A stretch of 64,000 bases of DNA from Desulfovibrio desulfuricans (GTDB taxonomy: Bacteria > Desulfobacterota > Desulfovibrionia > Desulfovibrionales > Desulfovibrionaceae), in assembly GCF_004801255.1 (NCBI RefSeq), contig NZ_CP036295.1, forward strand, positions 2,058,001 through 2,122,000, given 5' to 3'. Positions 13,664 to 34,915 of this stretch are shown here, piece after piece (within the stretch, counting starts at the first letter, position 1; each line of letters opens with the position of its first letter). The notes beneath the pieces are model-generated. The model had not been told where the DNA came from. It ran no database searches and was given only the letters and a program-made list of their open reading frames with translations. The position numbers and the translations under genes were made by a program.

Positions 13664-13842
13664 AGCGCCACCTCTCGGCATAATTTTGCATCAGCCCTTG
13701 AAGCGTCATACGGGCCCGCACGAACTCGAATCTGTACCCTGCCGCCGCTGCGTCGCCTTGCCAGCAACTGGCCGCGCCTTGCGGCAAAAATCGTCCACAA
13801 CCGGCATACAATCACAACGGCAATGCAAGCTGCCTTGCTTTG

Positions 13843-13882
13843 CGGCTTTCCCGATCGGTGACGCATCCTCTCGGGAAAGCCG
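13843..13882. promoter_or_regulatory. Strong hairpin between fixB and fixC
   Basis: Perfect 12-bp arms CGGCTTTCCCGA / TCGGGAAAGCCG with a 16-base loop, in the 277-base gap between fixB and fixC. On the minus strand there is no U-tract after it, so it is more likely an mRNA stability or attenuation element setting fixAB above fixCX than a simple terminator. Confidence 0.5.
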
Positions 13883-13940
13883 TTTCCACGGGGGTTTATT
13901 ACGCCGACATTACTCATGTAAGTCAGCAATTTAACATGAT

Positions 13941-14876: not shown

Positions 14877-14892
14877 TGCTCACTCCTTACAA

Positions 14893-18437: not shown

Positions 18438-19601
18438 CTAGGGTCTTTCGTGCGCGCCGTTGCGCTTTGCGTAGCCGCGTATTTTCATGGGGCCGAAAAG
18501 CAGCAGCGGTATGACGGTAAGAATCAGGCCAAACAGCCCCATGTACGCAAAGCCCTTGGCCACAATGGTCACCAGGCCAAGCTGGGACACGGCAAATGCA
18601 TAAAGCAGTGTAATAAGAGCAATTATGCAGTTTCTCGAACGCAGTGAGGGTATTTTTTCCTCGGGCAGCAGCTTCCAGACCTTGGAATTCTCAAAGCGGC
18701 GCACCGAAGAGAACACAAAGGCGAACGCCGTAGAAATAAAGGCGAAGAACATGGCGATGGTGTAGAATGTACGCAGCAGGTTTTGATCAAGATGTTCAAC
18801 GATGTAGAGCACCGGAATCGGGATCTTTTCGCTGAGCACTTCGGGGTAGTAGCCAAGCAGCATAAAGCACACCAGGGACAGGCACGTGCCGTTGATCAGC
18901 ACGCCGGTTAAGGCGGCCTTGGCGCAATGCGCGCGGGTTTGCAGGGGTTCGGCCACCGAGACAAAAGGCGCGATAAAGGTTTGGAACGAGCAATAAATCA
19001 GGGTCATCCACAGAGCGTGGGTCCAGCTGAAATCGGCCGGGGCGATCTGGTTGTGGATGTTGGCAAGGATCACGTCCCACTTGGTATTGATGCCCACAGC
19101 CACCACCGCGCCCAAAAAGAACAGCAAGGCGACGGTCTTGATGCCTGCCAGACGGCGCACCAGCTCAGCGCCAAACACCGAGCACAAGAACACGATGGAG
19201 GTCATGATCATGGTGCCGATGAAATACGGAGTGCCAAACGAGTGCTCCAGAATGGACGAACCACCGGCGATGGCCGCTGCCGGAGGCATGCACAAAAAGA
19301 TGATGAAAACAGCATCTTGGAGGTTGGCGAAAATCTTGTCGTAAGGATAATAAAAGCGGTCAACCCACGACCGCAGGTCGTACGACTTGCTGACGCGCGC
19401 AAACTCCCACATCATAAAGACGCAGCAGCCCTGAATGCTCATGGCGAGGAAAGGAAGGAACACGCAAGTCCAGCCGCTGGTGAGAAAATACCGCACTTCT
19501 TGCTGCCCGGAGGCAAAACCGCCGCCGGAGTGCATGGCAAACCAGAAGGTTGAACACAACAACCAAGCAGGAATGAATTTTTTGGTCATACCCAGGCCCA
19601 T
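18438..19601 (-). CDS. YkvI-type multipass membrane transporter
   Basis: Protein of about 387 residues with 10-11 hydrophobic segments, resembling the COG3949/YkvI group (distant relatives of the amino-acid/sodium symporter LeuT superfamily). It opens with a hydrophobic SGGGFASGQQEVRYF block typical of that group. ATG 19601 and ATG 19589 are both possible; neither has a clear SD, and the longer upstream frame (to 19658) lacks a hydrophobic character. It sits in the dehydratase block, so it is a candidate permease for the amino acid or hydroxy acid substrate (inference). Confidence 0.75.
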   Translation of the reverse strand: MGLGMTKKFIPAWLLCSTFWFAMHSGGGFASGQQEVRYFLTSGWTCVFLPFLAMSIQGCCVFMMWEFARVSKSYDLRSWVDRFYYPYDKIFANLQDAVFIIFLCMPPAAAIAGGSSILEHSFGTPYFIGTMIMTSIVFLCSVFGAELVRRLAGIKTVALLFFLGAVVAVGINTKWDVILANIHNQIAPADFSWTHALWMTLIYCSFQTFIAPFVSVAEPLQTRAHCAKAALTGVLINGTCLSLVCFMLLGYYPEVLSEKIPIPVLYIVEHLDQNLLRTFYTIAMFFAFISTAFAFVFSSVRRFENSKVWKLLPEEKIPSLRSRNCIIALITLLYAFAVSQLGLVTIVAKGFAYMGLFGLILTVIPLLLFGPMKIRGYAKRNGAHERP

Positions 19602-19694
19602 TTTTTCAAAGGGTTGAGAACCGCTCCCGATACAGCACTGGCAAGCAGTGCGCCTCAAGCGCCGCCCGTTTTCATAAAACCGCCACCCATCAAT

Positions 19695-19732: not shown

Positions 19733-20863
19733 TCAGGCCGAAATCACGTCTGCAAATGTCTGCAACGCAGTGCGCGCCTGTTCAAAGCTGCGCATCTGCT
19801 GGTCAACCTCAACGCTCACCATGGGGATACCCGCTGCATCGAGGGCCTTTTTCACCATGGGGAAGTCGAATTCCTCGGGGTCGCAAAACTTGGTCATCAA
19901 AAAGACAACGCCCTGCGCGCCGTGCTTTTTGACCATGTCCACAAGCATGGGGCCGCGTTTTTTGTCGGGGTCGTACAGCACAGAGCAGCCCTCCATGTCG
20001 GAGATCTGTCTGGCCAGGGCATTGAAGGGGTCGGCGTCCGCCGGGACATCGGTGCGGTACTGGCGCGACTCCTGCGCCACTTCGTCCGCAACCACGGCAA
20101 ACTTGTTGTCGGCCAGCACCTGCAGCAGGGCCGGGCTGTCAGCCAGAATACCCGTGGTGACGACCTTGTGCCCGTTCCATTCCTTCACGGGCTGCTGGCG
20201 GCACTGTTCAATGATCTGCCGGACAGCGGCCGTATGCTCGGCCCTGTCCATAAAACCGCCGCTCTTGATGACGGCATTGCGCTGCGCGGGCGAGATCAGG
20301 TGGGGGTACAGCGCGGCCACATCGGAAAATTCACGCAGGGCGTCGCGCTGGGCATTGCAGGTGTCGATGGCCTTTTGCAGCGAGGCCTTGTCCACCTTGC
20401 GGCCCGAAATGGCCGACAGTTTTTCGGCAATGGCCACGTACTGCTTGCGCATAAACTCGACGCCAGCAGGCAGCTTGCGGTTTTGAGGATGGATAACGGG
20501 GATGAACGGGACGTTTTTGACGCCCACCTTCCAGTTTTGCCCCAGGCACTTCAGCGTGTCGCACAACACGGGGATCATGGCGCCGGAGAGCTTGTCGAGC
20601 TTGCCGTTCAGCCCCATCTCAAGGCAGGTCTGGGCAATGCCGCAGTAAAAGGAAGGAAAGTACTTCTTGGCGCTGGATATTTCCATTTCAGCGCCCCAGA
20701 CGGCAAAAGGCGTCATGCCGGCGGCGATCACCAGCTCGGCGGGCGAATACACGGGGAAGCAGCCAATGGCCTTTTTGCCCTGCGCCACCATTGCGTTCAG
20801 CTGCGCAGCCGGGTTGGCCGCCACATCACACAGTTTCTGAAGGGTATCGTTGAGCGTGCTCAT
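19733..20863 (-). CDS. 2-hydroxyacyl-CoA dehydratase, second subunit (HgdB/HadC/LcdB family)
   Basis: Iron-sulfur subunit of 376 residues. The N-terminal GCFPVYSPAELVIAAGM and the FYCGIAQTCLE and PVLCDTLKCLGQNWK blocks supply the conserved Cys ligands of the [4Fe-4S] cluster in the HadC/LcdB family. TAATG overlap couples it to the preceding subunit gene, with AAGGAGGCG as ribosome site. The heterodimer removes water from (R)-2-hydroxyacyl-CoA through a ketyl radical after one-electron activation. Substrate candidates are lactyl-, phenyllactyl-, 2-hydroxyisocaproyl- or 2-hydroxyglutaryl-CoA; sequence alone does not choose. Confidence 0.92.
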   Translation of the reverse strand: MSTLNDTLQKLCDVAANPAAQLNAMVAQGKKAIGCFPVYSPAELVIAAGMTPFAVWGAEMEISSAKKYFPSFYCGIAQTCLEMGLNGKLDKLSGAMIPVLCDTLKCLGQNWKVGVKNVPFIPVIHPQNRKLPAGVEFMRKQYVAIAEKLSAISGRKVDKASLQKAIDTCNAQRDALREFSDVAALYPHLISPAQRNAVIKSGGFMDRAEHTAAVRQIIEQCRQQPVKEWNGHKVVTTGILADSPALLQVLADNKFAVVADEVAQESRQYRTDVPADADPFNALARQISDMEGCSVLYDPDKKRGPMLVDMVKKHGAQGVVFLMTKFCDPEEFDFPMVKKALDAAGIPMVSVEVDQQMRSFEQARTALQTFADVISA

Positions 20864-22086
20864 TATGCTTTCGCCTCCTTATTGGCAGCCATCACTTCGC
20901 ACAAAGCTTCAATGCGGGTCTGGTACTGAGCTTCTGAGAAGACGCGGGGGTCAGCCTGGTCGCCATCAAAGGTAACGGTGGGGATGTGCAACGTGTCGCG
21001 GATGCGCCGCTCCACTTCGGGCATGATGCCGCTCCAGAGCTTGCAGCTTCTGTTGGTATGGATGATGGCGCCGTCGATCTTGTTTTCGCGACCCACGTTG
21101 ATGCGCATGTCGGCGGCACGCTCCAGAGACACGCAGTTGGGCACGTACGAGTAAGCGCGCATCATTTCGGCGGTGTTGTTGTAAAGAACGCCAAAGGCTG
21201 TAGCGTAGACTGTTGCAGTAACGTTAATGCCGTGCTCCTTGAGGGGAGCCGAGGTGGCGCGCAGGTAGGGCCAACAGGCGATGCCTTCAAACAGCACGCG
21301 ATACTTCTGTTCGCCCTTGTAGGTGGAGGCGCCGGTTTTGACGGCGGCCTCGTATTCGTCGGCAAGCTGCTCAAAAGCCTCGGCAGCCTCAACTGTGCCC
21401 CGGGCGCACACGGCAACGGCCATGTGGTTGAACAGGTCAAAACCGTTGAGGGGCGAAGGCACGTACTTGGTGAACTCGGCAGCGCGCAGCCAGGCCTTGG
21501 CCGTGCGCTGCGAAACATCCATTACTTCCTTGAAGCGCTTTTCAGAAAAGGGCTTTCCGGTAATTTCAGAAAGCTGCTGCATGGCATGGTCAAACTGCGC
21601 CTTGATGTATTCCACCGAAGCATCGTCGGTTTCGTAATCATTCTTGAACGGAATATCGATGAGGATCATGGGGATATTGCGTTCTTTGGCGATGTTTTCG
21701 TACCACTTGATCATGCAGTTGCAGATATTGTTGCAGCACAAAACAAAGTCAGGCTGGGGCATATCCATTTCTTCACAGCTGCCGATGTCAAGAAATGCCA
21801 GGCTGGTGCGCGCATAGGCGCAGATATCGTTGGAATACCCCAGACCTTCGGCGTGCTCGCACATGCGCAGGCCGCCGCCCTTGGCCGCAATGGCTGCCGC
21901 CTGGTTTTCGGGATAGACAACCTTGATGCCCAGGGTCTGCGGAATTTCCTGCGGAAAATTCGAGGCGCACCACCCCACCATCTCGCCGCGCTTCTTGGCC
22001 TCCCAGGCCTCTTCATAAGCTTTTGCGGCAATGTCGCGCAGTCGTATTTTTGCCGGCACCGGTTCGCCAACATTCTGTTCACTCAT
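20863..22086 (-). CDS. 2-hydroxyacyl-CoA dehydratase, first subunit (HgdA/HadB/LcdA family)
   Basis: Subunit of 407 residues. Conserved blocks: VGWCASNFPQEIPQTLG, YPENQAAAIAAKG, DICAYARTSL, FVLCCNNICNCMIKWYE and the late HTNRSCKLWSG, giving the Cys set and active-site Ser/His region of the family. Start ATG 22086 has AAGGAG; the longer frame to 22221 overlaps the activator gene and is rejected. It forms the dehydratase with the next gene and needs the activator encoded just upstream. Confidence 0.92.
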   Translation of the reverse strand: MSEQNVGEPVPAKIRLRDIAAKAYEEAWEAKKRGEMVGWCASNFPQEIPQTLGIKVVYPENQAAAIAAKGGGLRMCEHAEGLGYSNDICAYARTSLAFLDIGSCEEMDMPQPDFVLCCNNICNCMIKWYENIAKERNIPMILIDIPFKNDYETDDASVEYIKAQFDHAMQQLSEITGKPFSEKRFKEVMDVSQRTAKAWLRAAEFTKYVPSPLNGFDLFNHMAVAVCARGTVEAAEAFEQLADEYEAAVKTGASTYKGEQKYRVLFEGIACWPYLRATSAPLKEHGINVTATVYATAFGVLYNNTAEMMRAYSYVPNCVSLERAADMRINVGRENKIDGAIIHTNRSCKLWSGIMPEVERRIRDTLHIPTVTFDGDQADPRVFSEAQYQTRIEALCEVMAANKEAKA

Positions 22087-22102: not shown

Positions 22103-22894
22103 CTAAGATTTTTTGGAACAGCTGTCGTACGCGTACAGGGCCGCGCCCAGAGCTCCGCACAGCACGGAGAGGGGCGATACCTGGATTGACGTATGCAGCT
22201 CTTCCGAAAGGATGCGCACAACTTCAGCGTCGGCGGCCACGCCGCCAGTCATGGCGACCAGGGGCGTGACGCCGACCCGTTTCACTAATCCTGCGGTTTT
22301 GCTTGCGATCGAATGATGGATTCCATCAATAATGTCAGGAATTGATACTCCGCTTGCGAGATGCGAAATAACTTCAGATTCTGCAAACACTGTGCATGTA
22401 GAGCTTATTTTGACAGACTTTGTTGCCTTTGCGCCAAGTGATGCCATTTCAGATAACTTGACCTCAAGCACTCTGGACATAACATCGAGGAATCTTCCTG
22501 TACCAGCAGCGCATTTGTCATTCATAACAAAGTTTACAAGCATACCTTGTTCTGAAATCTGCATGGCTTTTACGTCCTGACCGCCTATATCTATGAGCGT
22601 ACGTACTCTAGCAAACAGGCGCACGGCCCCCCTTGCGTGGCAGCTCAGCTCGCTCACCTCTTTGTTCGCCTCTTTGACCGAATTGCGCCCGTAGCCCGTG
22701 GCGCAGACAAAGGCTATGTCGCCAGCGCTTTTGCCGCAGGCCGCCAGGGCTTCGTCCATGGCCCTGCCAGGGCCGCTGGTGCCCGCACCTACGGCAACGA
22801 CCGACTTGGAGACGATGTCTTCACCGTTCTGCAGGATGATGCATTTGGAGGCGGAAGAACCGATGTCTACGCCCATTGTCAAAATGGAATTCAT
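22103..22894 (-). CDS. 2-hydroxyacyl-CoA dehydratase activator (HgdC/HadI/FldI family)
   Basis: ATP-dependent one-electron donor of 263 residues with the ASKHA (actin/hexokinase) fold. Phosphate loop GVDIGSSASKC at the N-terminus, LIDIGGQD mid-protein, and two cluster Cys in NDKCAAGTG and SSTCTVFAESEV; a homodimer shares one [4Fe-4S] cluster between these. ATG 22894 is used; a TTG two codons earlier is possible. The middle of the gene (about 22275-22600) is visibly richer in A+T than its ends. Order CoA-transferase, activator, subunit, subunit matches the clostridial had/fld operons. Confidence 0.93.
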   Translation of the reverse strand: MNSILTMGVDIGSSASKCIILQNGEDIVSKSVVAVGAGTSGPGRAMDEALAACGKSAGDIAFVCATGYGRNSVKEANKEVSELSCHARGAVRLFARVRTLIDIGGQDVKAMQISEQGMLVNFVMNDKCAAGTGRFLDVMSRVLEVKLSEMASLGAKATKSVKISSTCTVFAESEVISHLASGVSIPDIIDGIHHSIASKTAGLVKRVGVTPLVAMTGGVAADAEVVRILSEELHTSIQVSPLSVLCGALGAALYAYDSCSKKS

Positions 22895-22914
22895 GCACAA
22901 GACCTCATTTCACC

Positions 22915-24147
22915 TTACTTCCAGGCGCAAACTTCCTTATTGGCGATCATTTCGTCGATCTGTTCCTTGGTGTAGCCAAGGCTGCCAAGAATCTTGTAGT
23001 TGTCGCCGCCCACAAGGGGCGCCTGCTTGTATTCGGGCAGGCCCATTTCTTCAAAATCAATGGGGATACGCACGAGGGTACGGTTGTTGCCGTTGGGGTA
23101 TTGCATCTTGTAGAAGGAATCGACAGACCAGGCCTGCTTGTCTTCGAGGATTTCTTCCCAGGTCTGCGCAATGGAGAAGGGGATGTCGTGGGCGGTGAAT
23201 ATCTCGGCCCATTCCTTGACGGTCTTGGTCTGGAAGGCATCCCACAGGATGTCGTACAGCTCGGGCGAACGCTTGTGCTTGGCCACGACCTCCATCTTGG
23301 TGTAGCGCTCATCTTCGGCCAGATCTTCACGGCCGATGCACTTCATAAAGGTGGGATAGTACGCGTCGTAGACTGGCATGCAGATCTGGATGAAGCGGTC
23401 ATCCTTGGTCTTGTAGGCCACGATGAAGGGGCTGATGGTTTCGCGGCGGTCGATGGGGTACACCTGGCCGTAGTCGGTGTACTGCGCGCCCTGAATCATG
23501 ATGCCCTGGGTGTAGATGGCCGTGTGCAGCAGGTTGGTGGAGACCTTTTCACCCTTGCCGGTGCGCTGGGCGTTGATGTAGGCGGCAAGAATGCCCGCAG
23601 CCAGCATCATGCCGCACTGGTGATCGCCCAGACCGGGGACCACGTTCATGGGCACAGTGCCCTTTTGGTACAGGGTACCCAGCATGCCGCCGCGGGCAAA
23701 AAAGGCAGTGTAGTCAAAGCCGGGCAGGTCTTTGTCCGGTCCTTTTTCGCCGTAGCCGGTGGCATTGGCGTAAACAAGCTTGGGAAAAACAGTTTTGAGG
23801 TCGGCGTATGAAAGCTTGGCGCGTTCAAGCGCCTGAGGACGCCAGTTGGTAACAAAGATGTCGGCCTTTTCCAGAAGCTGAAAAAGAATTTTTCTGCCGC
23901 CGGGGCTCTTCATGTCCAGCCCCAGGCTCAGCTTGTTGGCGTTTTCAAGATCAAAGGTTGTGTTTTCGCTATGGTCCTGCGGGCGTCCCTCGGTGGGGGC
24001 AGTCCAGCGCAGGTTGTCCCCCTTGGCGCCTTCAATCTTGATAACCTCAGCGCCCATATCAGCGAGCATGCGCGTAGCGGAAGGAACGGCAATAAAGGTT
24101 GCCAGCTCCACAATTTTGACACCTTCCAGCAATTTTCTCTCAGACAT
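22915..24147 (-). CDS. Class III CoA-transferase (CaiB/BaiF; HadA/FldA-like)
   Basis: Enzyme of 410 residues that moves CoA between carboxylic acids through an aspartyl-CoA thioester intermediate. Family blocks: KIVELATFIAVPSATRMLADMGAEVIKIE at the N-terminus (only part quoted is diagnostic), NWRPQALERAKLSY, ATGYGEKGPDKD and GFDYTAFFARGGMLG, whose Asp is the expected nucleophile. SD AAGGAG precedes ATG. As HadA/FldA it would recycle CoA from the reduced acyl-CoA product to the incoming (R)-2-hydroxy acid. Confidence 0.92.
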   Translation of the reverse strand: MSERKLLEGVKIVELATFIAVPSATRMLADMGAEVIKIEGAKGDNLRWTAPTEGRPQDHSENTTFDLENANKLSLGLDMKSPGGRKILFQLLEKADIFVTNWRPQALERAKLSYADLKTVFPKLVYANATGYGEKGPDKDLPGFDYTAFFARGGMLGTLYQKGTVPMNVVPGLGDHQCGMMLAAGILAAYINAQRTGKGEKVSTNLLHTAIYTQGIMIQGAQYTDYGQVYPIDRRETISPFIVAYKTKDDRFIQICMPVYDAYYPTFMKCIGREDLAEDERYTKMEVVAKHKRSPELYDILWDAFQTKTVKEWAEIFTAHDIPFSIAQTWEEILEDKQAWSVDSFYKMQYPNGNNRTLVRIPIDFEEMGLPEYKQAPLVGGDNYKILGSLGYTKEQIDEMIANKEVCAWK

Positions 24148-24213: not shown

Positions 24214-25827
24214 CTAAGCGCATTCAGCACTTAATTTATCTTTTAAGTATTGAATATTGATCTTACCATTATCATTTAAAGGCATTTCATCAATGATCAT
24301 AAACTTACTTGGAATCTTATAGTGAGCAATTTTTCCTTCAAGTTCACTTTTTAAACCATACTCACTCAACATATATCCTGAATATGGAATAACTACTGCA
24401 ATAGCTTCTTCGCCAAGGTCTTTTGAGTAAATACCAAATACCTTTGCCTGATGAACACCGGCAATTTTTTTCAATGCGCACTCAATTTCCATTGGGCTTA
24501 TATTTTCACCACCACGCACAATAATATCTTTAATTCTATAGGAGTAATGCCAATCACCATACATATCTACAAATCCAGCATCGCCAGTGTGGTACCAGCA
24601 CCTGTCATCCATCACCGTTGAAACCTGTCCGTGCAGGCCGAGGTACCCCCTCATCACATGAAATCCACGGGTCCACAGCTCGCCGGTTTCTCCGGGCAGC
24701 AGCTCATCGCCGGTTTCCGGATCGACAACCTTCATCTCCACACCTGGCAAGGGCACGCCGATGGTGGTGCACTTCAGCTCTATATCCGCGTCGGGAAATG
24801 TTTGCGTGCAGCAGGGCGAGGTTTCCGTTTGCCCATAAGCGATGGAAAGCCCCTGCATGCCAAGCCTGTTTACGATGGCAGCCACAAGTGATTCACTGCA
24901 CTGAGAACCGGCAATAATGCCTTTTTTGAGAACAAGATTATTTGATCCGCTCGCAGATACGGCTTCCAAGAGTCTTCCAAACATTGTCGGCACGCCGTGC
25001 AAGACAGTACATTTGTATTTTTCGCAATATTTTATGACGTCAGAGACCCTGTACCGCTCAAGTATTACCAGCGGAACGCCGCAGGCGATGCTGCCAATGA
25101 GACATGTAGAAAGACCAAAGCAATGGAATAGCGGCACTGCCATGCAGCACAGATCTTTTGCGGCATCCAGCCCGAGGCGCTGAATAGAGAGAAAGGCGTT
25201 GTTGACCAGGTTGTCGTGCGTAAGCATGACGCCCTTGGGTCGGCAGGTACTGCCAGAGGTAAACAGGATACAAGAAACATGCTGCGGCTGGACGGCTGCG
25301 CGGATGCCGGCATAAAAATCGGCGGAAAGGCTTGCGCCCAGAGATGCAAGGTCAGCAGTGCTCACAGATGAGGCAATGGAGTTGTCGCCAAGGCTTACCG
25401 AAAACTTGAGCGTCGATGGCTCGGCGGCGTCCGCGCCGTCCATAAACAATCCATCGACTATCGCCGCGTAATCCACATCGCGGTAGCCGTCCGCATAACA
25501 TATGCACGCGCAACGGGTGCGGCTGACAATGTCTTCAATCTCCGGTCTGGTCAGATGGATATTGACCGGCACAAAAACCGCTCCAAGTTTGATGGCCGCA
25601 AGCCCGCAGACAATCAGCGAAACCGAATTACACGACCAGCCCACAAAGGTATCACCTGCACGCAGGCCCTTGACCCACAACCCCCTGGCGTAGGCATCGG
25701 TCAACGCGTCAAGCTCGCTCCAGGACAACCTCTCGCCTGTGTTCGCCTGAATCAGGGCGTCCGTTTCCGGCCAGGTTTCGGCAGCGCGGCTGAGAAAGTC
25801 GCCAATGGTCATTGCAAAAGGCCTCAT
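24214..25827 (-). CDS. AMP-forming acyl-CoA synthetase
   Basis: Adenylate-forming ligase of 537 residues. Motifs: P-loop LFTSGSTCRPKGVMLTH, AYGQTETSP, ELWTRGFHVMRGY, YHTGDAGFVD and the C-terminal NDNGKINIQYLKD with the catalytic Lys. Start ATG 25827 has AAGGGG at good spacing; in-frame ATGs further upstream (25857, 25884) do not. First gene of the minus-strand operon, it would prime the pathway by making the first CoA ester. The last ~380 bases are clearly AT-rich, unlike most of the gene, suggesting a mosaic origin. Confidence 0.92.
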   Translation of the reverse strand: MRPFAMTIGDFLSRAAETWPETDALIQANTGERLSWSELDALTDAYARGLWVKGLRAGDTFVGWSCNSVSLIVCGLAAIKLGAVFVPVNIHLTRPEIEDIVSRTRCACICYADGYRDVDYAAIVDGLFMDGADAAEPSTLKFSVSLGDNSIASSVSTADLASLGASLSADFYAGIRAAVQPQHVSCILFTSGSTCRPKGVMLTHDNLVNNAFLSIQRLGLDAAKDLCCMAVPLFHCFGLSTCLIGSIACGVPLVILERYRVSDVIKYCEKYKCTVLHGVPTMFGRLLEAVSASGSNNLVLKKGIIAGSQCSESLVAAIVNRLGMQGLSIAYGQTETSPCCTQTFPDADIELKCTTIGVPLPGVEMKVVDPETGDELLPGETGELWTRGFHVMRGYLGLHGQVSTVMDDRCWYHTGDAGFVDMYGDWHYSYRIKDIIVRGGENISPMEIECALKKIAGVHQAKVFGIYSKDLGEEAIAVVIPYSGYMLSEYGLKSELEGKIAHYKIPSKFMIIDEMPLNDNGKINIQYLKDKLSAECA

Positions 25828-25907
25828 ACTTACCCCTTGATCAAATTCAGCATTCATAAATCGCGTCAGGGCACGCACCGCCAAACAGGTATTTCTTTAG
25901 AACTCAC

Positions 25908-25919
25908 ATTGTCGACAAT
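25908..25919. promoter_or_regulatory. Operator-like palindrome ATTGTCGACAAT, site 1
   Basis: Perfect 12-bp palindrome 81 bases upstream of the acyl-CoA synthetase start codon. It is followed by TAAAATTCA, a context shared with site 2. The TGT..ACA core fits the GntR/FCD operator consensus. Confidence 0.7.
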
Positions 25920-26211
25920 TAAAATTCAATTTGTTGAAAAAAAATATCATCTACCAAGTCAATTACAGAAAATTTGTGAGATAAATTCAGCTTATTAAAA
26001 ACAATAAAAAATATATTTTAAAGTAAAAGTCTAAAAAAAAATTCTAGTTGTATATATATTCATTCAATTACTATTGCAAAATTACTACTGCTTCTTCTTT
26101 TAAAGCCAAAACTAAATAACTATTATTTTTTTGTTTTACTTATTAAATAGATTTAACATTTATGAGTCACAACAAATACTGCTTCTGCTTGTCATAATAA
26201 TTTTATCATTC

Positions 26212-26223
26212 ATTGTCGACAAT
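26212..26223. promoter_or_regulatory. Operator-like palindrome ATTGTCGACAAT, site 2
   Basis: Identical 12-bp palindrome, followed by AAAAATTCA as at site 1, in the middle of the divergent region. Confidence 0.7.
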
Positions 26224-26428
26224 AAAAATTCATATTTTTTTATAATACCTTTTTTTCAATAGCTATTTCATCAAATGAAATTTTTCTCATATAAAAAAAA
26301 TCAATTAAAACAGAATAATATAAACAAATACCAATTGTCTCTCCCAAACACATCCACAAAGGCCCTAACCACTGCCTGGTGTTTTTTCGACTAGCCTCCT
26401 TTCATTTTGCTGTCAACAGCCATTTTTC

Positions 26429-26462
26429 AAAAAATTCAAATTGTCGACAATTTGAATTTTTT
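26429..26462. promoter_or_regulatory. 34-bp perfect palindrome containing ATTGTCGACAAT, site 3
   Basis: The 12-bp core lies at the centre of a perfect palindrome with arms running out through TTCAAA and A-tracts on both sides. As RNA it would form a bidirectional hairpin with a following U-run, so it may be both operator and terminator. Confidence 0.7.
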
Positions 26463-26635
26463 TTGTTCATCTTAATCCAAAGTCTCGTTTGCGCTAAAAA
26501 TCACAATCTAAGGAAATACCACTCATACTTTTACAATTTTGGACATGATTTTATTTAAAATAGACAGTATATCTATTTTTGAAAAAAAATTGTCACATAT
26601 GAATACTTTTACTATTGCAACTTATTATGTTTTTA

Positions 26636-26647
26636 ATTGTATACAAT
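26636..26647. promoter_or_regulatory. Operator-like palindrome ATTGTATACAAT, site 4
   Basis: Same half-sites as sites 1-3 with TA instead of CG at the centre, about 200 bases upstream of the MFS gene start. Confidence 0.6.
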
Positions 26648-26850
26648 GCAATAAATTAATTTTTACATTCTGCATTTTACATTAGTTGCGGATATTTTTT
26701 GTAAAAATAGCTTTTTTTTAAAAAAATATTATTTCTTTACTTTTTAAAAACACGATGAGAATGCTCTCTTTAGCAGAGCATCAAAAAGTTCGTTCCTCAA
26801 ACGTTCTGAAGCTGTTTTTGAGACTGAAAAAACAACTGGCGAGGTAGAAG

Positions 26851-28143
26851 ATGGCTCAAGCTATCGACACAGTTCATGCCCCAAGTAAAATCCGATGGCT
26901 TTTGCTTGGGATCGTCTTCATGTCATGCCTTGTTGCGTATCTGGACCGGGTTAACCTCTCGGTCTGCGCTACGTTCATTATGGAAGATATGAAATTTGAT
27001 CGAGTTCAGCTCGGCTATGCAATGTCGGCTTTTTTTGCCGCCTATGCCCTGACCCAAATTCCCGGCGGTATTTTGGCCGAGCGATGGGGCATACGAAAAA
27101 ACGGTGCTTTTGCAATGTTTTGGTGGTCGTTGTTTACATTTTTGACGCCCCACGCCTGGGGCTTTGCAAGTTTTGTAGTGGTGCGGTTTCTCTTTGGCCT
27201 TGGCGAAGGCCCGCTGTACCCCAACAACGGCTTCTTTTTTGCCAAGTGGTTCAGTTCTAAAGAAAAAGCCATTGCAAACTCGTGGATGAGCGCAGGCACG
27301 CTGCTTGGACCGGCCCTGGGGCCGCCGCTGACTGTATTTTTGGTGACGCACACGAGCTGGCACTGGGCCTTTTATGTATTTGGCTTTGCAGGATTTATCG
27401 CCACTGCGCTGTGGTGGATCTACGCCAGAGACACCCCGGCCGAGCATCCCAAGATCAATGATGCGGAACTGCTGATCATTACTGAACAGACCAACGTTCA
27501 GGATGCCGTTTCCGAGGCGTCCAAAAAGATCAAGACGCCCTGGGGCAAGTTCCTTAAAAACCATAGGTTCTGGGCCATTGGCTTTCAGTACATGGCCAAC
27601 AACTACATAACCTTTTTGTTTATGTCGTGGGTGCCGCTGTACCTGCAGCAATCGCGTGGCGTGAGCTTTACGCAGATGGGCGCGCTTGCCGGCTTGCCGT
27701 TTTTGGCGGCGGCCATCAGCACCGTTCTCACCTCCATTTTGAGCGACAAACTGGTGCGGATGGGCAAATCCAAAAAGCTTACCCGCTCTGCCTTTGGCTT
27801 TTTGGGCATGAGCGGCTGCGCTGTGTTTCTCTACTTTGCAACCCAGGTCGACACGGTTGCCCAAAACATCGCCCTGCTTTCCTTAAGCTACGGTTTCCTT
27901 GGCTTTAACCTTACCGCCGCCTGGGCGGCCTGCCAGGACATCGGCGGCAAGTACGGCGGCACGGTTGCCACCTGGATGAACTTTTGGGGAACCATTGCCG
28001 GTGTGGCCGCCCCGATTTTGACGGCTCTTTTCGTTGATTGGGTGGGTTGGGAAAACGCCTTTGTCATCAGCACCGGCATCGTCGGTTCTGGTGCGCTGAC
28101 CTGGCTGATTATCAATCCTGACAAAAAACTGGTCGAAGACTAG
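26851..28143 (+). CDS. MFS organic-anion transporter (ACS family)
   Basis: Inner-membrane carrier of 430 residues with 12 predicted helices. YLDRVNLSVCATFI in helix 1, GGILAERWGIRKNG after helix 2 and FGLGEGPLYPNNGFFFAKWF are hallmark blocks of the anion:cation symporter family, whose members import sugar acids and related hydroxy-carboxylates. Ribosome site GAGGT precedes ATG. First gene of the plus-strand branch, directly followed by a LarA-like gene, so it probably imports the 2-hydroxy or sugar acid on which LarA acts. Confidence 0.9.
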   Translation: MAQAIDTVHAPSKIRWLLLGIVFMSCLVAYLDRVNLSVCATFIMEDMKFDRVQLGYAMSAFFAAYALTQIPGGILAERWGIRKNGAFAMFWWSLFTFLTPHAWGFASFVVVRFLFGLGEGPLYPNNGFFFAKWFSSKEKAIANSWMSAGTLLGPALGPPLTVFLVTHTSWHWAFYVFGFAGFIATALWWIYARDTPAEHPKINDAELLIITEQTNVQDAVSEASKKIKTPWGKFLKNHRFWAIGFQYMANNYITFLFMSWVPLYLQQSRGVSFTQMGALAGLPFLAAAISTVLTSILSDKLVRMGKSKKLTRSAFGFLGMSGCAVFLYFATQVDTVAQNIALLSLSYGFLGFNLTAAWAACQDIGGKYGGTVATWMNFWGTIAGVAAPILTALFVDWVGWENAFVISTGIVGSGALTWLIINPDKKLVED

Positions 28144-28151
28144 GCAAACCA

Positions 28152-28187
28152 ATCCGGGCAGGCCATTTGCGACCTGCCCGGATTTTA
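28152..28187 (+). terminator. Terminator or attenuator between the MFS and LarA-like genes
   Basis: 11-bp perfect arms ATCCGGGCAGG / CCTGCCCGGAT, 10-base loop, then TTTT. Only 28 bases separate it from the LarA start codon, so read-through would be needed for co-expression unless LarA has its own promoter. Confidence 0.75.
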
Positions 28188-28214
28188 AACACTATGCTAG
28201 AAGGATGGCCGCAT

Positions 28215-29522
28215 ATGCAGTTCAATTTTCCTCCGATCGACATCCCTGTTGAGGGCCTCGACAAGGTCAAGCTCCCCAAAATGTATTCCATTACTCAGCG
28301 GTACGACGACCAGCGGGTTGCGGACATCTCGGGGCACCTTGCAGCGCAGCTTGAATCGCAGATCGGCAACAAGGGGGCCTTCAAAGGAAAAAGCATCGCC
28401 CTTACCGTGGGCAGCAGGGGCATACCCCACCTTGACGTCATGGCCAAAACCATCTGCGACCAGCTTAAAAAATGGGGGGCCGCGCCGTTTATCGTGCCCT
28501 CCATGGGCAGCCACGGCGGCGCTACGGCAGAGGGGCAGATAGAGATGCTGGCCGGGTACAACATCACCGAGCAGAGCATTGGGGTTCCGATCAAATCGTG
28601 TATGGATGTGGTGCAATATGATGCGCTTGACGACGGCACTCCACTTTACTGCGACAAAAACGCCTGGAGTGCGGACGGCATTGTTGTGTTCAACAAGGTC
28701 AAGCCCCACACCGATTTTCGCGGTGCGCACGAAAGCGGCCTGGCAAAAATGATCGCCATCGGGCTGGCCAAGCACAAGGGCGCGTCCATGTTCCACATGA
28801 AGGGCTTTGCCTGCTTTCCCGACGTGCTGCCTGTCATCGCCGAAAAGTTCATCAAAAAAGGTCCGCAACTCATGTTTGGCGTGGGCGTTGTGCAAAATGC
28901 CTACGACGAGGTCTGCAATATCGACGTGTGCCCCAAAGAGGGCATCATCAAGATGGATGCCGACCTGCTGGTCGTCGCCAAGGGCAAGATGCCGCGCTTC
29001 AAGTTTCAGGAATGCGATGTGCTTGTCATCGACGAAATAGGCAAAAACATCAGCGGCAACGGGCACGACCCCAACATTGTAGGGCGCAACAACTCCGGCG
29101 ACTTCCCCGAAGTGTTCACGCTCAAGCGTCTGGTTATCCTGGGCATAACCCCAGAATCGCACCACAACGCCGCAGGCATCAACCTTGCCGACATCACCAC
29201 CCGTGGGCTGCTTAATGACGTGGACTGGCGGGCCACATGGATCAACGTGCTCACCGCCAACCGGCCCAACGGCGGCAAAATTCCGGTCTATGCCGAAACT
29301 GACCGCGATGCCGTCATCATGGCCATTCGCACCGGCGACAATGTCGATTTTGAGCACCCACGGGTCGCCCATATTAAAAACACGCTCTGCATGACCAAAA
29401 TCGACGTTTCGGAAGCCATTTACAACGAAATCAAGGACAGGGACGACGTAAGCCTGATCAGCGGCCCCTTTGAGCTTGATTTCAATGCCGATGGTCGTCT
29501 CACGCCTCTTGAAGAAGCCTGA
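28215..29522 (+). CDS. LarA-like nickel-pincer-cofactor racemase/epimerase
   Basis: Protein of 435 residues of the lactate racemase (DUF2088) superfamily, which moves a hydride on 2-hydroxy acids using a nickel-pincer nucleotide covalently held by Lys. Candidate equivalents of L. plantarum LarA His108, His174, Lys184 and His200 are His100 (PSMGSHGG), His165 (KVKPHTDF), Lys178 (ESGLAKM) and His194 (SMFHMKG); the spacings are close but the motifs differ from true lactate racemase, so the substrate may be another 2-hydroxy acid. ATG 28215 follows AAGGAT; upstream in-frame ATGs are weaker. larC and larB lie 2.6 kb downstream. Confidence 0.82.
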   Translation: MQFNFPPIDIPVEGLDKVKLPKMYSITQRYDDQRVADISGHLAAQLESQIGNKGAFKGKSIALTVGSRGIPHLDVMAKTICDQLKKWGAAPFIVPSMGSHGGATAEGQIEMLAGYNITEQSIGVPIKSCMDVVQYDALDDGTPLYCDKNAWSADGIVVFNKVKPHTDFRGAHESGLAKMIAIGLAKHKGASMFHMKGFACFPDVLPVIAEKFIKKGPQLMFGVGVVQNAYDEVCNIDVCPKEGIIKMDADLLVVAKGKMPRFKFQECDVLVIDEIGKNISGNGHDPNIVGRNNSGDFPEVFTLKRLVILGITPESHHNAAGINLADITTRGLLNDVDWRATWINVLTANRPNGGKIPVYAETDRDAVIMAIRTGDNVDFEHPRVAHIKNTLCMTKIDVSEAIYNEIKDRDDVSLISGPFELDFNADGRLTPLEEA

Positions 29523-30038: not shown

Positions 30039-32072
30039 ATGAAAGGAAGCGTCAGAATGAAGCTATTGGTGCCCTCCATAGCCATGCTGGTTTTATGCAT
30101 GGGGGTATCAAGCTATTTTTCTTCCCAAAAATCCGCACATGAGGCATCGCAGGTGCTGGTTGGCACGGCCCGGCTTGCGGCACAGGACGTAAGCAAAAAT
30201 CTTGATGATATGCTGTCATTTGTGTGCAACGTGCTGGCGCTCGAGAGCGGCAACGAGATACTTGACGGGCTGCTAACCGACAAGGGCCCGTCAGAGAGTG
30301 AATTTAACGATGCGGTCAAGCTGCTCAAAAAGCTCGTTGCAACCAGCAACCTTGTTTCCGCAGCCCGCGTCTACAACACGCAGGGCAAATGCATCGTCAG
30401 CGATACGGGGATTACCAATATAGATGTAAAGGACAGGGATTATTTTAAAAAGGTCATGACAGGCCAGACCAACATAAGCAACCCGCTTATAAACCGGGCC
30501 AACAACCTGCCCGTATGCGTCATATCAACGCCGATCATCCGCAACGGTAAAATCACCGGCGCGCTGATTGTGGGCATAGACCTGTCGCCATTTACCGAAA
30601 ACATGATCGCGCCCATTAAAATAGGCGAAAAAGGCTATGTGTACCTTGTGGACGGCAACGGCATCACGGTAAGCCACCCGGACGCAGCGCAGATCATGCA
30701 GCTCGACATCTCCCGCTTTGAATGGGGCCGCAAAATGCTCTCCACCGGCAACGGCAGCACTGAGTACTCATTTGACGGGCACGGAAAAACAGCCATCTAT
30801 GCCAAGGTCAAATCCACCGGCTGGATTGTGTGCGCCATTGTCAGCGAGGACGACACTACAGCCGTTGCCCGGGTCATATGGACATCGAGCATGGTTTTGA
30901 GCGGCGTCGGCGTGGGGCTTGTGTGTCTGATCCTCATTTTTATCGTCAATCCCATCCTGGCCGCCCTGCAAAAGTGCGTCGCATTTTCCGAGGCGGTCAC
31001 CATGGGCGACCTTGGCAAGCAGCTTGAAATCAACCGCACGGACGAGCTTGGCAAGCTTGGCCGCTCCCTGTCCATCATGGTTGAAAAGCTTAAAGAAATG
31101 GTGGCCACCGCCGAAATCAAGACGACGGAATCCGAGGAGCAGACCCGTAAGGCCAAGACAGCCATGGAACAGGCGGAAGAAGCCCGCCGCCAGGCGGAAG
31201 AAGCCAAGCGCGAGGGCATGCTTGCCGCCGCAGGCCAGCTCGAGGAAGTGGTGTCAATCATTTCTTCGGCATCAACGCAGCTGTCGGCGCAAATCGCGCA
31301 GTCGCACCAGACCACGCAAGAGTCGGCCCAATGCCTCGCTGAGGCCGCCGACGCCATGAACCAGATGACCGCCGCTGTGCACGATGTGGCCGCCAGCGCC
31401 TCAAGCGCGTCGAGCATGTCTGAAAAAACCAAGGCGAACGCCGAGGATGGGGCAAACATCGTGCGGGAATCCCTGCAGAGCATTGCCAAGGTCAACGAAG
31501 TGTCCATGGAGCTGAAAAAAGACATGACCCAGCTCAACGAACACGCGCAGGCCATCAACCGCATAATGGGCGTTATTTCAGACATTGCGGACCAGACAAA
31601 CCTGCTGGCGCTTAACGCGGCCATTGAAGCGGCCCGCGCGGGCGACGCAGGGCGCGGCTTTGCCGTTGTGGCCGATGAGGTGCGCAAACTGGCGGAAAAA
31701 ACCATGACCTCCACGCAGGATGTGGGCAATGCCATTACCGCCATCCAGAGCAGTACGACAAAAAGCGTCTCCGGCATGGACAACGCCCTGCAGCAGGTTG
31801 AAACGGCCACAGGCTGCGCGGGCAAATCCAGAGAAGCGCTGCAGCTGATTGTCAGCGATGTGGAATCCACAGCCGGGCAGGTGCGGGCCATCGCCGTTGC
31901 CTGCGAGCAGCAGTCGGCGGCCAGCGAGGCCATCAACAATTCCATTGAGCACGCCAACAGCATGTCCGAGCAGACGACCCAGGCCATGACCGAATCCGCG
32001 CGGGCCGTGGCCGACCTGGCCCAGCAGGCGCAAAAACTGAGCGCCCTGATCAGGGAAATGAAAAACGGTTAG
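30039..32072 (+). CDS. Methyl-accepting chemotaxis protein with periplasmic Cache sensor
   Basis: Chemoreceptor of 677 residues. TM1 ~8-27, a periplasmic dCache-like sensor ~30-275 (FSxDIxxxDRDYF-type segment [17 protein letters not shown]), TM2 ~280-305, HAMP ~305-360, a charged coiled coil rich in [10 protein letters not shown], then the signalling domain with the hairpin-tip block around [21 protein letters not shown] and [15 protein letters not shown] follows AAGGAG. It lies between the LarA-like and larC genes, so it may sense the hydroxy acid this island uses (inference). Confidence 0.93.
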
Positions 32073-32095: not shown

Positions 32096-32133
32096 AAAGG
32101 GCCGGCAATGCAAAGCTGCGCTGCTGGCCCTTT
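32096..32133 (+). terminator. Terminator-like hairpin after the chemoreceptor gene
   Basis: 12-base arms AAAGGGCCGGCA / TGCTGGCCCTTT with one G:U pair. The right arm ends only 10 bases before the larC start, so it could also mask larC translation. Confidence 0.6.
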
Positions 32134-32143
32134 ACGGTATATC

Positions 32144-33043
32144 ATGAACATACTCTATTATGACTGCTTTTCCGGCATCAGCGGCGACATGAACATGGCG
32201 GCCATGATTGATCTGGGAGTCGACCCGCACTACCTGAAGGCCGAGCTGGACAAACTTGGCCTGGGTGCGGAATTTGAGCTGAAGGTCTCCACCTGCGCCT
32301 GCAGCGGCATCAAGGGCACGCAGGTGCATGTCTGTCAGGACGGGAAAAAGTACCACGATCGTGGTCATGCTCATAACCTTGCACATGACCTTGCGCATGA
32401 CCACGATCATGACCATGCCGCAGAGCCATCATGCGAGCATGCCGGACATGCGGAGCACCACCCCGCGCATGACCATGCTGTCGCCAGCGCCGCCCGCCAT
32501 GAGCACCACCACGCGCAGCACAGAAACCTTGCCGCCATAGAAGCCATCATCATGTCCAGCGACCTGAAGCCAGAGGTAAAGCAGACGAGTCTGCGCATCT
32601 TTGACCTCATAGCAAAGGCCGAGGCCAAAGTTCACGGCAAGCCGGTCGGCGAGGTGCACTTTCACGAGGTGGGCGCAACAGATTCCATTGTGGACATCGT
32701 GGGCGCGGCCATCTGTTTTCACGCGCTGCGGGTGGATGCCGTGTGGGCCTCGGCCATCGAGCTTGGCAGCGGGCTTGTCCACTGCGCCCATGGCGTCATG
32801 CCTGTACCGGCCCCGGCAACGACAGAGATAGTCCATGGGCTGCCCACAACCAGGGGCGGCACAGACCACGAGGCGACAACCCCCACGGGGGCGGCCATCA
32901 TAGCGGCGCTGACCAGCCGCTTTACCTCAACGCCAGCCATGTCCACCAGCAAAACGGGCTATGGCATAGGGCACCGTCAATCCAGCCGCCCCAACATGCT
33001 GCGGGTATTCCTTGCAAGCGACGACTGCCCTGCCCATATGTAG
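32144..33043 (+). CDS. larC: LarC-like nickel insertion protein, N-terminal (LarC1) part only
   Basis: Protein of 299 residues with the LarC opening YYDCFSGISGDMNMAAMIDLG, VHFHEVGATDSIVDIVGAA, and GHRQSSRPNMLRVFL. LarC is the CTP-dependent enzyme that puts nickel into the pincer cofactor. Residues ~75-135 are an extremely His-rich tract (HDHDHDH, HEHHH), expected to hold nickel. It stops at about the LarC1/LarC2 border: the usual ~140-residue LarC2 domain is missing, and larB begins 22 bases later. In L. plantarum the two parts join by programmed frameshift; no second part is seen here in any frame. Confidence 0.85.
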   Translation: MNILYYDCFSGISGDMNMAAMIDLGVDPHYLKAELDKLGLGAEFELKVSTCACSGIKGTQVHVCQDGKKYHDRGHAHNLAHDLAHDHDHDHAAEPSCEHAGHAEHHPAHDHAVASAARHEHHHAQHRNLAAIEAIIMSSDLKPEVKQTSLRIFDLIAKAEAKVHGKPVGEVHFHEVGATDSIVDIVGAAICFHALRVDAVWASAIELGSGLVHCAHGVMPVPAPATTEIVHGLPTTRGGTDHEATTPTGAAIIAALTSRFTSTPAMSTSKTGYGIGHRQSSRPNMLRVFLASDDCPAHM

Positions 33044-33064
33044 CGCAATTTCCAGGTACGACAA

Positions 33065-33808
33065 ATGACAAACGACATGTTGCAAGACCTGCTGTCAGCC
33101 GTTAAAAACGGCGGGCTCTCCGTAGCTGAGGGCATGAATGCCCTGCGTGATTCAGCTTTTCTGGATTTGGGGCATACAAAGTTCGACGCGCACCGCGCCC
33201 TGCGGAACGGATTTCCCGAGGTGGTCTACGGCGAGGGCAAAACGCCGGAACAGGTGGCCGAAATATTTTGTCTGCCGGGCACGCAGGGCAACATACTTGC
33301 CACGCGCGTTTCGCCCGAGATGGCCAGTCATGTCCAATCCCTATGTCCGGATGCCGAGTATAACCGGCTGGGGCGTACCCTGACCCTGGCCCGAAGCCCC
33401 CAGGTGTGGAAGCAGGGCGAGGTGGCCATTGTCACAGCGGGCACGTCCGACCTGCCCGTTGCGGAAGAGGCGCACGTAACCTGCGGCATGCTGGGGTGCA
33501 AGACCCGCATAATTTCCGACGTCGGCGTAGCGGGCATTCACCGCCTGCTGACGTGCCTGCCCGCCATCCGTTCCGCGCGGGTTGTCATTGTGGTTGCGGG
33601 CATGGAGGGTGCGCTGGCCAGTGTTGTGGGCGGCCTGATACCGCAGCCAGTTATTGCTGTTCCCACCTCTGTAGGGTACGGAGCCTCCTTTGCCGGCCTT
33701 TCAGCACTGCTTGGCATGCTCACCTCCTGCGCGAGCGGCGTTACTGTGGTAAATATAGACAATGGTTTTGGGGCCGCCTGCGCCGCTTGCAGAATAGCCA
33801 ATGCGTAA
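33065..33808 (+). CDS. larB: LarB, nicotinate dinucleotide carboxylase/hydrolase of pincer cofactor synthesis
   Basis: Protein of 247 residues that carboxylates nicotinic acid adenine dinucleotide to the biscarboxylic mononucleotide, the first step of nickel-pincer nucleotide synthesis. AIR-carboxylase-like (PurE-type) C-terminal half: VAIVTAGTSDLPVAEEA, VVAGMEGALASVVGGL and PTSVGYGASFAGLSALLGML are typical LarB blocks. LarE, the sulfur-donating enzyme, is not in this window and must be elsewhere if the cofactor is made. Confidence 0.93.
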   Translation: MTNDMLQDLLSAVKNGGLSVAEGMNALRDSAFLDLGHTKFDAHRALRNGFPEVVYGEGKTPEQVAEIFCLPGTQGNILATRVSPEMASHVQSLCPDAEYNRLGRTLTLARSPQVWKQGEVAIVTAGTSDLPVAEEAHVTCGMLGCKTRIISDVGVAGIHRLLTCLPAIRSARVVIVVAGMEGALASVVGGLIPQPVIAVPTSVGYGASFAGLSALLGMLTSCASGVTVVNIDNGFGAACAACRIANA

Positions 33809-33940: not shown

Positions 33941-34915
33941 ATGCGAATAGCCGTATTTGAAGTCAAGGATTGGGAAGAACAGTATTTTTGTCAGGCCGTC
34001 GCATCCGGCAGGTACACCCTTGAGCTCAGTGAAAACAAGCTCACAGCCGACCTCGCACGCACGCTCGAGGGCTTTGACGCGGTCTCTGTTCTTGAGAGCG
34101 CTCTGGACGCGCCTGTTCTCGACATCATGAAAAGCCGGGGCATACGGTTTATCACCACCCGCACAACCGGCTACGACCAGATCAACGTGGCGTACGCAAA
34201 ATCCATAGGCCTCAAGGTTGCCAATGCCCTGTACCCGTCAGATGCGGTGGCCGAATTTACAATCCTGCTCATGCTATTGAGCCTGCGCCACTACAAGGCC
34301 TCGCTGTACCGCGTGGCCACCAACGATTACTCGCTGGCTGGCCTGAAAGGCAAGGAGCTCAAAACAATGACCGTGGGCGTGGTGGGCACAGGCGGCATAG
34401 GCTCCTGCGTGGTGCGCCTTCTTGCCGGTTTTGGGTGCAGGATACTGGCCTACAACAAAAGCCAGAAGCCCGATCTGGCCGCGCTGGCGCAATACACCGA
34501 CATGGAGTCAATCTTCCGTCAGAGCGACATCATCACCTTTCATATTCCGCTGACCGATCAAACCCGGCACATCGTCAACGACGCATCGCTAGCCAAAATG
34601 AAGGACGGCGTCATCCTGATCAACACGGCCAGAGGCGAGCTGATGCGCACCGAAGCGCTTATCGCCGGGGTGGAGTCTGAAAAGATCGGGGCGCTCGGGC
34701 TGGATGTGTTTGAAGAAGAGCGCGACATCTACCACCGCTACCGTACTACAGACATCATAAAAAACCGCAATATGGCCTACCTGCGCCAGTTTCCCAATGT
34801 TGTCATGACGCAGCACATGGCCTTTTTTACCGAGACGAACATCAATTCAATGGTCTGCGACAGTCTGGACAACCTGTTAAAGATGCACGAAGGCCAGGGG
34901 TATTACGAAATATAA
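33941..34915 (+). CDS. D-2-hydroxyacid dehydrogenase (NAD-dependent, D-LDH family)
   Basis: Cytosolic oxidoreductase of 324 residues converting 2-oxo acids to (R)-2-hydroxy acids. Rossmann motif VGTGGIG ~148-154; catalytic Arg231 (TARGEL), Glu260 (DVFEEE) and His292 (TQHMAF) are all present. Length and motifs match D-lactate and D-2-hydroxyisocaproate dehydrogenases. It would provide exactly the stereoisomer that 2-hydroxyacyl-CoA dehydratases accept. It starts 132 bases after larB and probably belongs to the same functional group. Confidence 0.93.
   Translation: MRIAVFEVKDWEEQYFCQAVASGRYTLELSENKLTADLARTLEGFDAVSVLESALDAPVLDIMKSRGIRFITTRTTGYDQINVAYAKSIGLKVANALYPSDAVAEFTILLMLLSLRHYKASLYRVATNDYSLAGLKGKELKTMTVGVVGTGGIGSCVVRLLAGFGCRILAYNKSQKPDLAALAQYTDMESIFRQSDIITFHIPLTDQTRHIVNDASLAKMKDGVILINTARGELMRTEALIAGVESEKIGALGLDVFEEERDIYHRYRTTDIIKNRNMAYLRQFPNVVMTQHMAFFTETNINSMVCDSLDNLLKMHEGQGYYEI

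Follow-up and report, generated by a model that had tools for sequence, protein, structure and literature searches.

Four palindromes in the divergent control region of a Desulfovibrio desulfuricans 2-hydroxyacid island as predicted operators of a GntR/FCD regulator

The island and its divergent control region

The window analyzed here, a stretch of 64,000 nucleotides from the genome of Desulfovibrio desulfuricans, contains an island at 10416-34915 that is laid out in two divergent branches (Table 1). The island appears equipped for the uptake of a 2-hydroxy acid and for its racemisation, activation, dehydration, and reduction, and it reads as if such an acid served as an electron acceptor. 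Two HGD-D subunits and a BadF-type activator, the combination by which a dehydratase pathway is recognized, are encoded together in one cluster. Both subunits miss the respective HadB and HadC equivalog cut-offs and the substrate of the dehydratase was therefore left without assignment. Among 79 genomes of the genus, the dehydratase was detected (E <= 1e-60) in two, that of the window and one other that is 100% complete and is referred to below as G102, while the nearest dehydratases among the matches listed were those of Leminorella, Proteus, and Serratia (74-79%). One TGA was reported inside the G102 frame that matches a dehydratase subunit (L131, C3:89436-90791), and this may lie in an extension before the true start. 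Transposase-type integrase-core genes are present at 54694-55674 and 58244-58825, in the right part of the window.

The control region is the gap between the two divergent genes, which start at 25827 on the reverse strand and at 26851 on the forward strand. A first-pass annotation, made from the sequence alone, had described three exact copies of ATTGTCGACAAT and one of ATTGTATACAAT within 740 bases of this region, and these were borne out. The ATTGTATACAAT copy, at site 4, differs from ATTGTCGACAAT at two positions, and all four sites read TTGT-NN-ACAA, which places them within the TKGT-N2-ACMA form of the GT-N2-AC operator class of the FadR subfamily. The flank AAAATTCA, described as shared by two copies, was also found to be real, and all four AAAATTCA/TGAATTTT copies in the spacer are separated from a site by a single base, namely beside sites 1 and 2 and on both sides of site 3. 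The region is full of weak repeats, and the possible fifth site listed in Table 1 may be a product of chance, with one such word per kilobase. No convincing sigma-70 promoter was found to overlap site 1 or site 4, the region giving nine promoter-like matches against 6.2 expected, and no plausible match to a sigma-54 promoter was found in the control region.

Table 1. Features of the island, its control region and the proposed regulator gene (window coordinates)
Feature	Position	Strand	Basis or remark
GntR/FCD transcription factor, proposed cognate regulator	9595..10254	+	Pfam, clade alignment, solved-structure matches
Desulfovibrio-type outer-membrane porin, left branch distal end	10416..11966	-	DESULF_POR1 4.5e-133
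Electron transfer flavoprotein subunits and ETF-QO-like flavoprotein, FixA/FixB/FixC-like (our naming)	12377..15663	-	
MFS transporter, nearest L-lactate and oxalate/formate types	15750..16958	-	Below cut-offs
Acyl-CoA dehydrogenase	17206..18345	-	Pfam
Membrane-like protein, no Pfam/NCBIfam match	18438..19658	-	29% to proteins in two printed clostridial dehydratase loci
2-Hydroxyacyl-CoA dehydratase subunit, HadC-like	19733..20863	-	Below cut-off
2-Hydroxyacyl-CoA dehydratase subunit, HadB-like	20863..22086	-	Below equivalog cut-off; start placed after activator overlap
BadF-type ATPase, putative dehydratase activator	22103..22900	-	Pfam
Family III CoA-transferase	22915..24147	-	Pfam
AMP-forming acyl-CoA ligase, first left-branch gene	24214..25827	-	Start ATG 25827-25825; Pfam
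Divergent control region	25828..26850		27% G+C vs 56% for window
Predicted operator site 1, ATTGTCGACAAT	25908..25919		80 bp before left-branch start codon; then T-AAAATTCA
Predicted operator site 2, ATTGTCGACAAT	26212..26223		Then A-AAAATTCA
Possible weak fifth site, CTGTCAACAG (word CTGTCAACA)	26410..26419		31 bp centre to centre from site 3
Predicted operator site 3, ATTGTCGACAAT	26440..26451		Centre of perfect 34-nt palindrome 26429-26462
Predicted operator site 4, ATTGTATACAAT	26636..26647		203 bp before right-branch start codon
MFS transporter, first right-branch gene	26851..28143	+	
LarA-type nickel-pincer isomerase, NCBIfam group 22	28167..29522	+	3.9e-142, above cut-off
Chemoreceptor with dCache domain	30039..32072	+	Pfam
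LarC-like and, by AIRC domain, LarB-like nickel-pincer cofactor genes	32108..33808	+	
D-2-hydroxyacid dehydrogenase	33941..34915	+	Only first ~107 bp within the block shared with G102

Rarity of the palindromes and their conservation in G102

The frequency of the palindromes was compared with that in shuffled DNA. Across the window, ATTGTCGACAAT with up to two mismatches was found eight times against a shuffle mean of 2.02, and a count of eight was reached in none of 100 shuffles. In 2000 dinucleotide shuffles of the intergenic region of 1,024 bp (27% G+C), ATTGTNNACAAT occurred with a mean of 0.0035 and a maximum of 1, compared with the four copies observed, and the exact 12-mer, of which three copies are observed, was produced in none. 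The genome was then searched as one contig of 3,251,440 bases. The exact 12-mer ATTGTCGACAAT was located at four places, three of them in the control region, with none for the reversed-pattern control, and so this word is rare and not common genome-wide; its fourth copy, at 157675, lies within a long open frame. Without mismatch, ATTGTNNACAAT occupies six genomic places, four in the control region, and the sixth (2648750) is within a long frame. The looser TTGTNNACAA is common, with 84 genomic places against 22 for the reversed pattern, and the weight accordingly falls on the complete word and on its clustering. The matches listed gave no sign of a wider regulon, the copies of TTGTCGACAA at 1407994, 1951513, and 2777167 all being within long frames.

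Collinearity with G102 covers 9519 to about 34047 and is made up of three segments with 84-90% DNA identity. A further collinear G102 match of 146 bp (71%) lies at 9036-9176, and other matches were found out of order. Alignment of the two control regions gave 714 identical columns out of 1035 (69%), with 124 of the 1024 twelve-column windows being identical throughout. A comparison of orthologous control regions had been proposed as a check on the palindromes, and in G102 the four sites proved to be kept in register, with 12/12, 10/12, 12/12, and 12/12 identical positions for sites 1 to 4, respectively. At site 2 the inner TGTCGACAAT is kept, and at site 4 the identity runs on for 22 further bases to the right. 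The spacings between the sites, 304, 228, and 196 bp in the window, are 303, 227, and 196 bp in G102 and so are maintained to within 1 bp. The conservation in register supports the prediction that the palindromes are operators rather than products of chance.

Conservation of the surroundings of the sites is mixed. The flank words are kept at sites 1 and 2, and of the three G102 copies two are beside a site and one is away from any. Conservation does not extend to the outer arms of the 34-nt palindrome centred on site 3, and in the fifth weak word nearby TGTCAACA is kept. A block of ~ 45 bp before the right branch (26718-26762), which contains no operator, is almost identical in G102 and is perhaps the right promoter or leader.

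The candidate regulator and the distribution of the 12-mer

The first-pass annotation had placed a GntR/FCD gene at 9.6 kb. This gene, 16 kb from the sites, was confirmed by Pfam, with the GntR (9.2e-18, 64.1 bits) and FCD (2.7e-17, 63.8 bits) matches both above cut-off. The protein displays the N-terminal GntR winged helix and the C-terminal FCD domain of the FadR (FCD) subfamily, and among the 19 shared-block proteins scanned with Pfam it was the only one found to have a DNA-binding domain. Its winged helix carries the sequence 40-SRTPIRE-46 and the pair Y60-P61. The ligand-binding group of FCD domains has the metal-ligand pattern D-x3-H ... H ... H, and residues D125, H129, H173, and H195 of the protein are invariant in the four members of its clade and align with the D/H/H/H of the solved structure 3sxy, so that metal binding is predicted. 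The clade profile also matched PDB 7xp0 ('Probable transcriptional regulator') at 1.2e-28, which we take to be PmiR. That protein reportedly senses 2-methylisocitrate, a hydroxy acid, to judge from the title of the PmiR paper.

The clade to which the candidate regulator belongs is a narrow one. A GntR match at E <= 1e-25 was obtained in four of the 79 genus genomes, including that of the window, with identities of 100, 94, 47, and 37%, and the 47% and 37% relatives, the next closest in the genus, are those of genomes G194 (89% complete) and G196. The members of the clade share the sequences SRTP-[IV]RE and YP-[AS]. A sample of 395 genomes across the phylum added no clade member at 1e-28. A profile search of 288 family genomes recovered, beyond these four, 12 loci with 27-34% relatives, one of which has TTGTNNACAA, and the same word was present at one of the 28 loci of 24-34% relatives from a separate search. 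The rarity of TTGTNNACAA at distant relatives indicates that the exact operator is a property of this narrow clade. Viral contigs gave no relative of the regulator, and nine plasmid records carry relatives with 32-35% identity.

The relationship between the 12-mer and the regulator was further studied across the genus. Both G194 and G196 are without the dehydratase, and each has the exact 12-mer once, beside the GntR gene. In G194 this sole copy follows the GntR stop codon by 95 bp and precedes an RraA-like gene, with 22 bp left to the earliest start codon that the next gene could use; a one-off copy, ATTGTCGACAAA, is found 26 bp ahead of the GntR start. The sole copy in G196 precedes the GntR start by 81 bp. 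The GntR neighbours in these two genomes (L127 and L128) encode RraA-like proteins, D-2-hydroxyacid dehydrogenases, and TRAP or TctA transporters, and here, then, a second, unrelated pathway type occurs with the same regulator clade and the same 12-mer. Overall, the 12-mer is present in 18 of the 79 genus genomes, comprising all four with the clade and 14 of the 75 without it (one-sided Fisher p 0.002). That the sole 12-mers of G194 and G196 lie at the genes of the nearest relatives, in genomes without the dehydratase, indicates that the operator follows the regulator and not the pathway. The predicted assignment of the operators to the GntR/FCD clade of the 9.6-kb gene is supported by this pairing.

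In the 14 non-clade genomes the 12-mer occurs at 16 places, three of them in a single genome (G178), and the background check covered one locus from each genome. No GntR relative was found within about 1.5 kb of the 12-mer at any of these 14 loci; 12 of the copies are in frames of at least 240 codons and two are outside long frames. Taken alone, then, the presence of the word is no proof of a link to the regulator. The three exact copies in G178 are on three contigs of a genome without a close relative of the regulator, and the one at the locus examined (L160) is in AT-rich DNA outside long frames. It could possibly be that another regulator uses the same word in G178.

It had also been suggested that one regulator serves both branches and possibly its own gene. 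The first part of this suggestion is favored by the pairing of the 12-mer with the GntR clade in G194 and G196, and by the position of the sites, which suits both branches; the part concerning self-regulation did not hold. Elements do exist before the regulator gene where they had been described (8603-8629), as TTGTCGACAG at 8602-8611 and TTGTACAGCAAGTACAA at 8613-8629, but they are 965 bp before the start codon and the longer one is at chance level, TTGTACAGCAAGTACAA having one match with up to two mismatches against 1.29 expected. Both are outside the block shared with G102, which begins at 9519, and outside the match at 9036-9176, and autoregulation through them was rejected. From 8612 to the start codon of the regulator there is no TTGTNNACAA even with one mismatch allowed, and the 10 kb before the G102 copy of the gene contain no exact TTGTNNACAA. 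An operator before the regulator's own promoter was thus found neither here nor in G102, unlike in G194 and G196.

Several other candidates within the island were rejected. The copy of TTGTCGACCA at 12295 is in a stretch kept in G102 that reads, by eye, as a FixX-like small gene, and the word itself is changed in G102; a second copy, at 13140, is inside the fixC-like gene. Before the chemoreceptor, TTGCATACAA at 29949 is not kept in G102. The cupin gene at 34974-35513 was considered as a rival regulator and rejected, as its product reads as membrane-anchored and Pfam gave no DNA-binding domain. This gene stands at the right edge, and in G102 its relative is found across the island, next to the end that carries the GntR gene.

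Proposed mode of regulation and likeness to known systems

One interpretation of these data, and to us a probable one, is that the four palindromes are operators of the 9595-10254 protein, which would act as a local, ligand-released GntR/FCD repressor of an island for 2-hydroxyacid uptake, racemisation, and reduction. A dimer would occupy each palindrome, with each half site, ATTGT, being contacted by one winged helix. Site 1 lies before the left operon, which comprises genes for CoA activation, the dehydratase, an acyl-CoA dehydrogenase, and Fix-like electron transfer, and site 4 lies before the right branch (transporter, LarA-type racemase, chemoreceptor, LarC/LarB, and dehydrogenase), while sites 2 and 3, in between, could let dimers bound at distant sites cooperate. 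Most likely, both branches would be repressed until a 2-hydroxy acid or a pathway product bound to the FCD metal site. A hydroxy acid is tentatively proposed as the ligand because of the pathway itself and because of the D-2-hydroxyacid dehydrogenase genes nearby, such a gene being found near all three kinds of clade locus, although sharing of the window copy with G102 is limited to its first ~107 bp. The spacings of the sites are mixed, not all being whole helical turns, and a consistent helical phasing was rejected; what speaks for looping then comes down to the maintenance of those spacings in G102. The outcome for the island is a named candidate regulator, an exact operator, and a small candidate regulon, and the inducer of the regulator would point to the island substrate.

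The alternatives differ in how the sites would be used and by which protein. The same regulator and operators could serve for activation of the branches, or for activation of one and repression of the other, and this was judged unlikely. It would accord with the finding that no site but site 1 comes within 200 bp of a start codon, and the right promoter could be located in the conserved block at 26718-26762, with site 4 then upstream of that promoter. However, the two G194 sites, 26 and 22 bp ahead of the GntR start and of the next gene's first possible start, respectively, are in the usual positions for repression, where promoters are expected, and thus favor repression; moreover, PrpR, which has the same motif, is a repressor according to the accessible text of its report (PMC9765439). 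It is less probable still, and by some distance, that the sites have a different reader, be it either of the genome's other two FCD proteins or a member of a different family. The genome does hold three FCD genes, and 43-45% relatives of the FCD protein encoded at 856649 are also present in G194 and G196; that protein, however, gave no match at 1e-40 in G102, which keeps all four sites, and the protein encoded at 1085703 has, as read by eye, Arg and Gly at the positions that favor TGGT. Both are unlinked to the island, and the pairing in G194 and G196 is explained by neither.

Hardly credible, finally, is the notion that a short dispersed repeat, or chance in AT-rich DNA, gave rise to the palindromes. 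The low G+C content of the region (27%) and its many weak repeats lend themselves to such a reading, but two copies of ATTGTNNACAAT never appeared in any of the 2000 shuffles of the region, any further exact copy in the genome is inside a long frame, and the sites stand out by their identity in a region that is 69% identical to its G102 counterpart. A repeat or chance origin was thus refuted as far as a sequence can do so.

The residues of the clade were set against published correlations for the FadR subfamily. In the accessible part of that study (PMC4494728), the GT-N2-AC class includes the sites of PrpR, UxuR, GntR, and others, and Arg at position 28 of the HTH together with Gly at position 59 correlates with the G in TKGT, and Pro at position 40 goes with avoidance of that G. 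In the clade, position 28 is Gln, Met, or Ala, position 40 is Pro, and position 59 is Ala or Ser; with no Arg 28, no Gly 59, and Pro 40, it fits TTGT rather than TGGT by those correlations. The same text gives a non-significant trend from Thr at position 39 to A/T at the central bases, and three of the four sites, having a CG centre, run against it. The divergons of Suvorova et al. 2015 (PMC4494728) resemble the present region in having GT-N2-AC palindromes between divergent operons, with weaker extra boxes near the sites. They differ in having, among those analyzed in the accessible text, one or two sites, whereas here there are four over 740 bp, with the regulator gene 16 kb away.

The closest likeness is to PrpR of Pseudomonas aeruginosa, a GntR/FCD repressor. 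The earlier statement that the core fits GntR/FCD operators agrees both with the GT-N2-AC class and with the predicted motif of this protein, which is the identical 12-mer ATTGTCGACAAT and is held by a 250-bp fragment that PrpR shifts (accessible part of PMC9765439). PrpR/PmiR (PA0797, tied to the PmiR paper in the accessible text of PMC13086498) thus shares with the present system the protein family, the 12-mer, and, as predicted here, the repression of an organic-acid pathway. In the text available, the pathway of PrpR is a different one, the 2-methylcitrate cycle, and its motif is before its own gene, one predicted site being reported 84 bp upstream; in the island there are four sites, and site 1 is 80 bp before a structural gene. 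Linked 2-methylcitrate-cycle genes, by which a PrpR orthologue would be recognized, were not found among the island proteins scanned. The operator class, the protein family, and the exact 12-mer are already known; what appears new to us is the regulon, the array of four sites, and the distance of the regulator gene.

Dehydratase loci of other bacteria were also examined. Relatives of the dehydratase subunits were collected at 80 loci, of which 70 remained after removal of near-duplicates, nine of these from the set L041-L055 and 61 from L056 or later. The first set, mostly from Enterobacterales, gave no GntR hit, and its nine non-redundant loci are without TTGTNNACAA before the ligase or activator gene. 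Five of the seven loci mapped in this set have the order ligase, CoA-transferase, activator, two subunits, acyl-CoA dehydrogenase, and FixABC-like genes, one of them with a LarA-like gene inserted, and the other two are short contigs.

The 61 loci of the second set are mainly clostridial, and their Stickland-type dehydratase operons contain homologous dehydratase, activator, ligase, and CoA-transferase genes. In this case, TTGT-NN-ACAA was found before the ligase or activator gene at 16 loci, with 18 hits against 2.33 expected from whole loci, an expectation that understates AT-rich spacers. No other of the 256 split palindromes was found at as many loci before the clostridial ligase and activator genes. 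Two others were enriched as strongly or more in L056-L120, namely ATAC-NN-GTAT (13 loci, 18 hits, 1.75 expected) and ATGT-NN-ACAT, also of GT-N2-AC form (11 loci, 12 hits, 0.93 expected), and these are possible operators of other regulators. In an earlier form of the test, TTGT-NN-ACAA was present at 14 of 35 GntR-bearing loci compared with 1 to 7 for five other palindromes. A GntR hit was located within about 1.2 kb of the site at 11 of the 16 loci, with none nearby at the other five, and all six of the GntR neighbours checked are GntR+FCD proteins. The clostridial sites differ in their outer bases, 16 of the 18 being C..G, in the form CTTGTNNACAAG, whereas A..T is found here, and the GntR neighbours are ~ 24-33% identical to the regulator and belong mostly to another sub-clade (EN, VSR, YPQRGT).

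These data suggest that FCD control through GT-N2-AC sites recurs in 2-hydroxyacyl-CoA dehydratase pathways. Among the literature matches listed, whose scope took in few subscription papers, no operator of this kind was described for dehydratase clusters. A bolder proposal, which we offer tentatively and regard as rather doubtful, is that GntR/FCD proteins and GT-N2-AC sites form a recurring code for these pathways across phyla, read by different FCD sub-clades, and that here one regulator and the conserved four-site array in its AT-rich spacer would make up a single nucleoprotein switch that responds to a 2-hydroxy acid and thereby ties together the transport of that acid, chemotaxis, racemisation, and respiratory reduction. 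Given the clostridial parallel, regulators of Stickland-type dehydratase operons could perhaps be assigned by the same approach.
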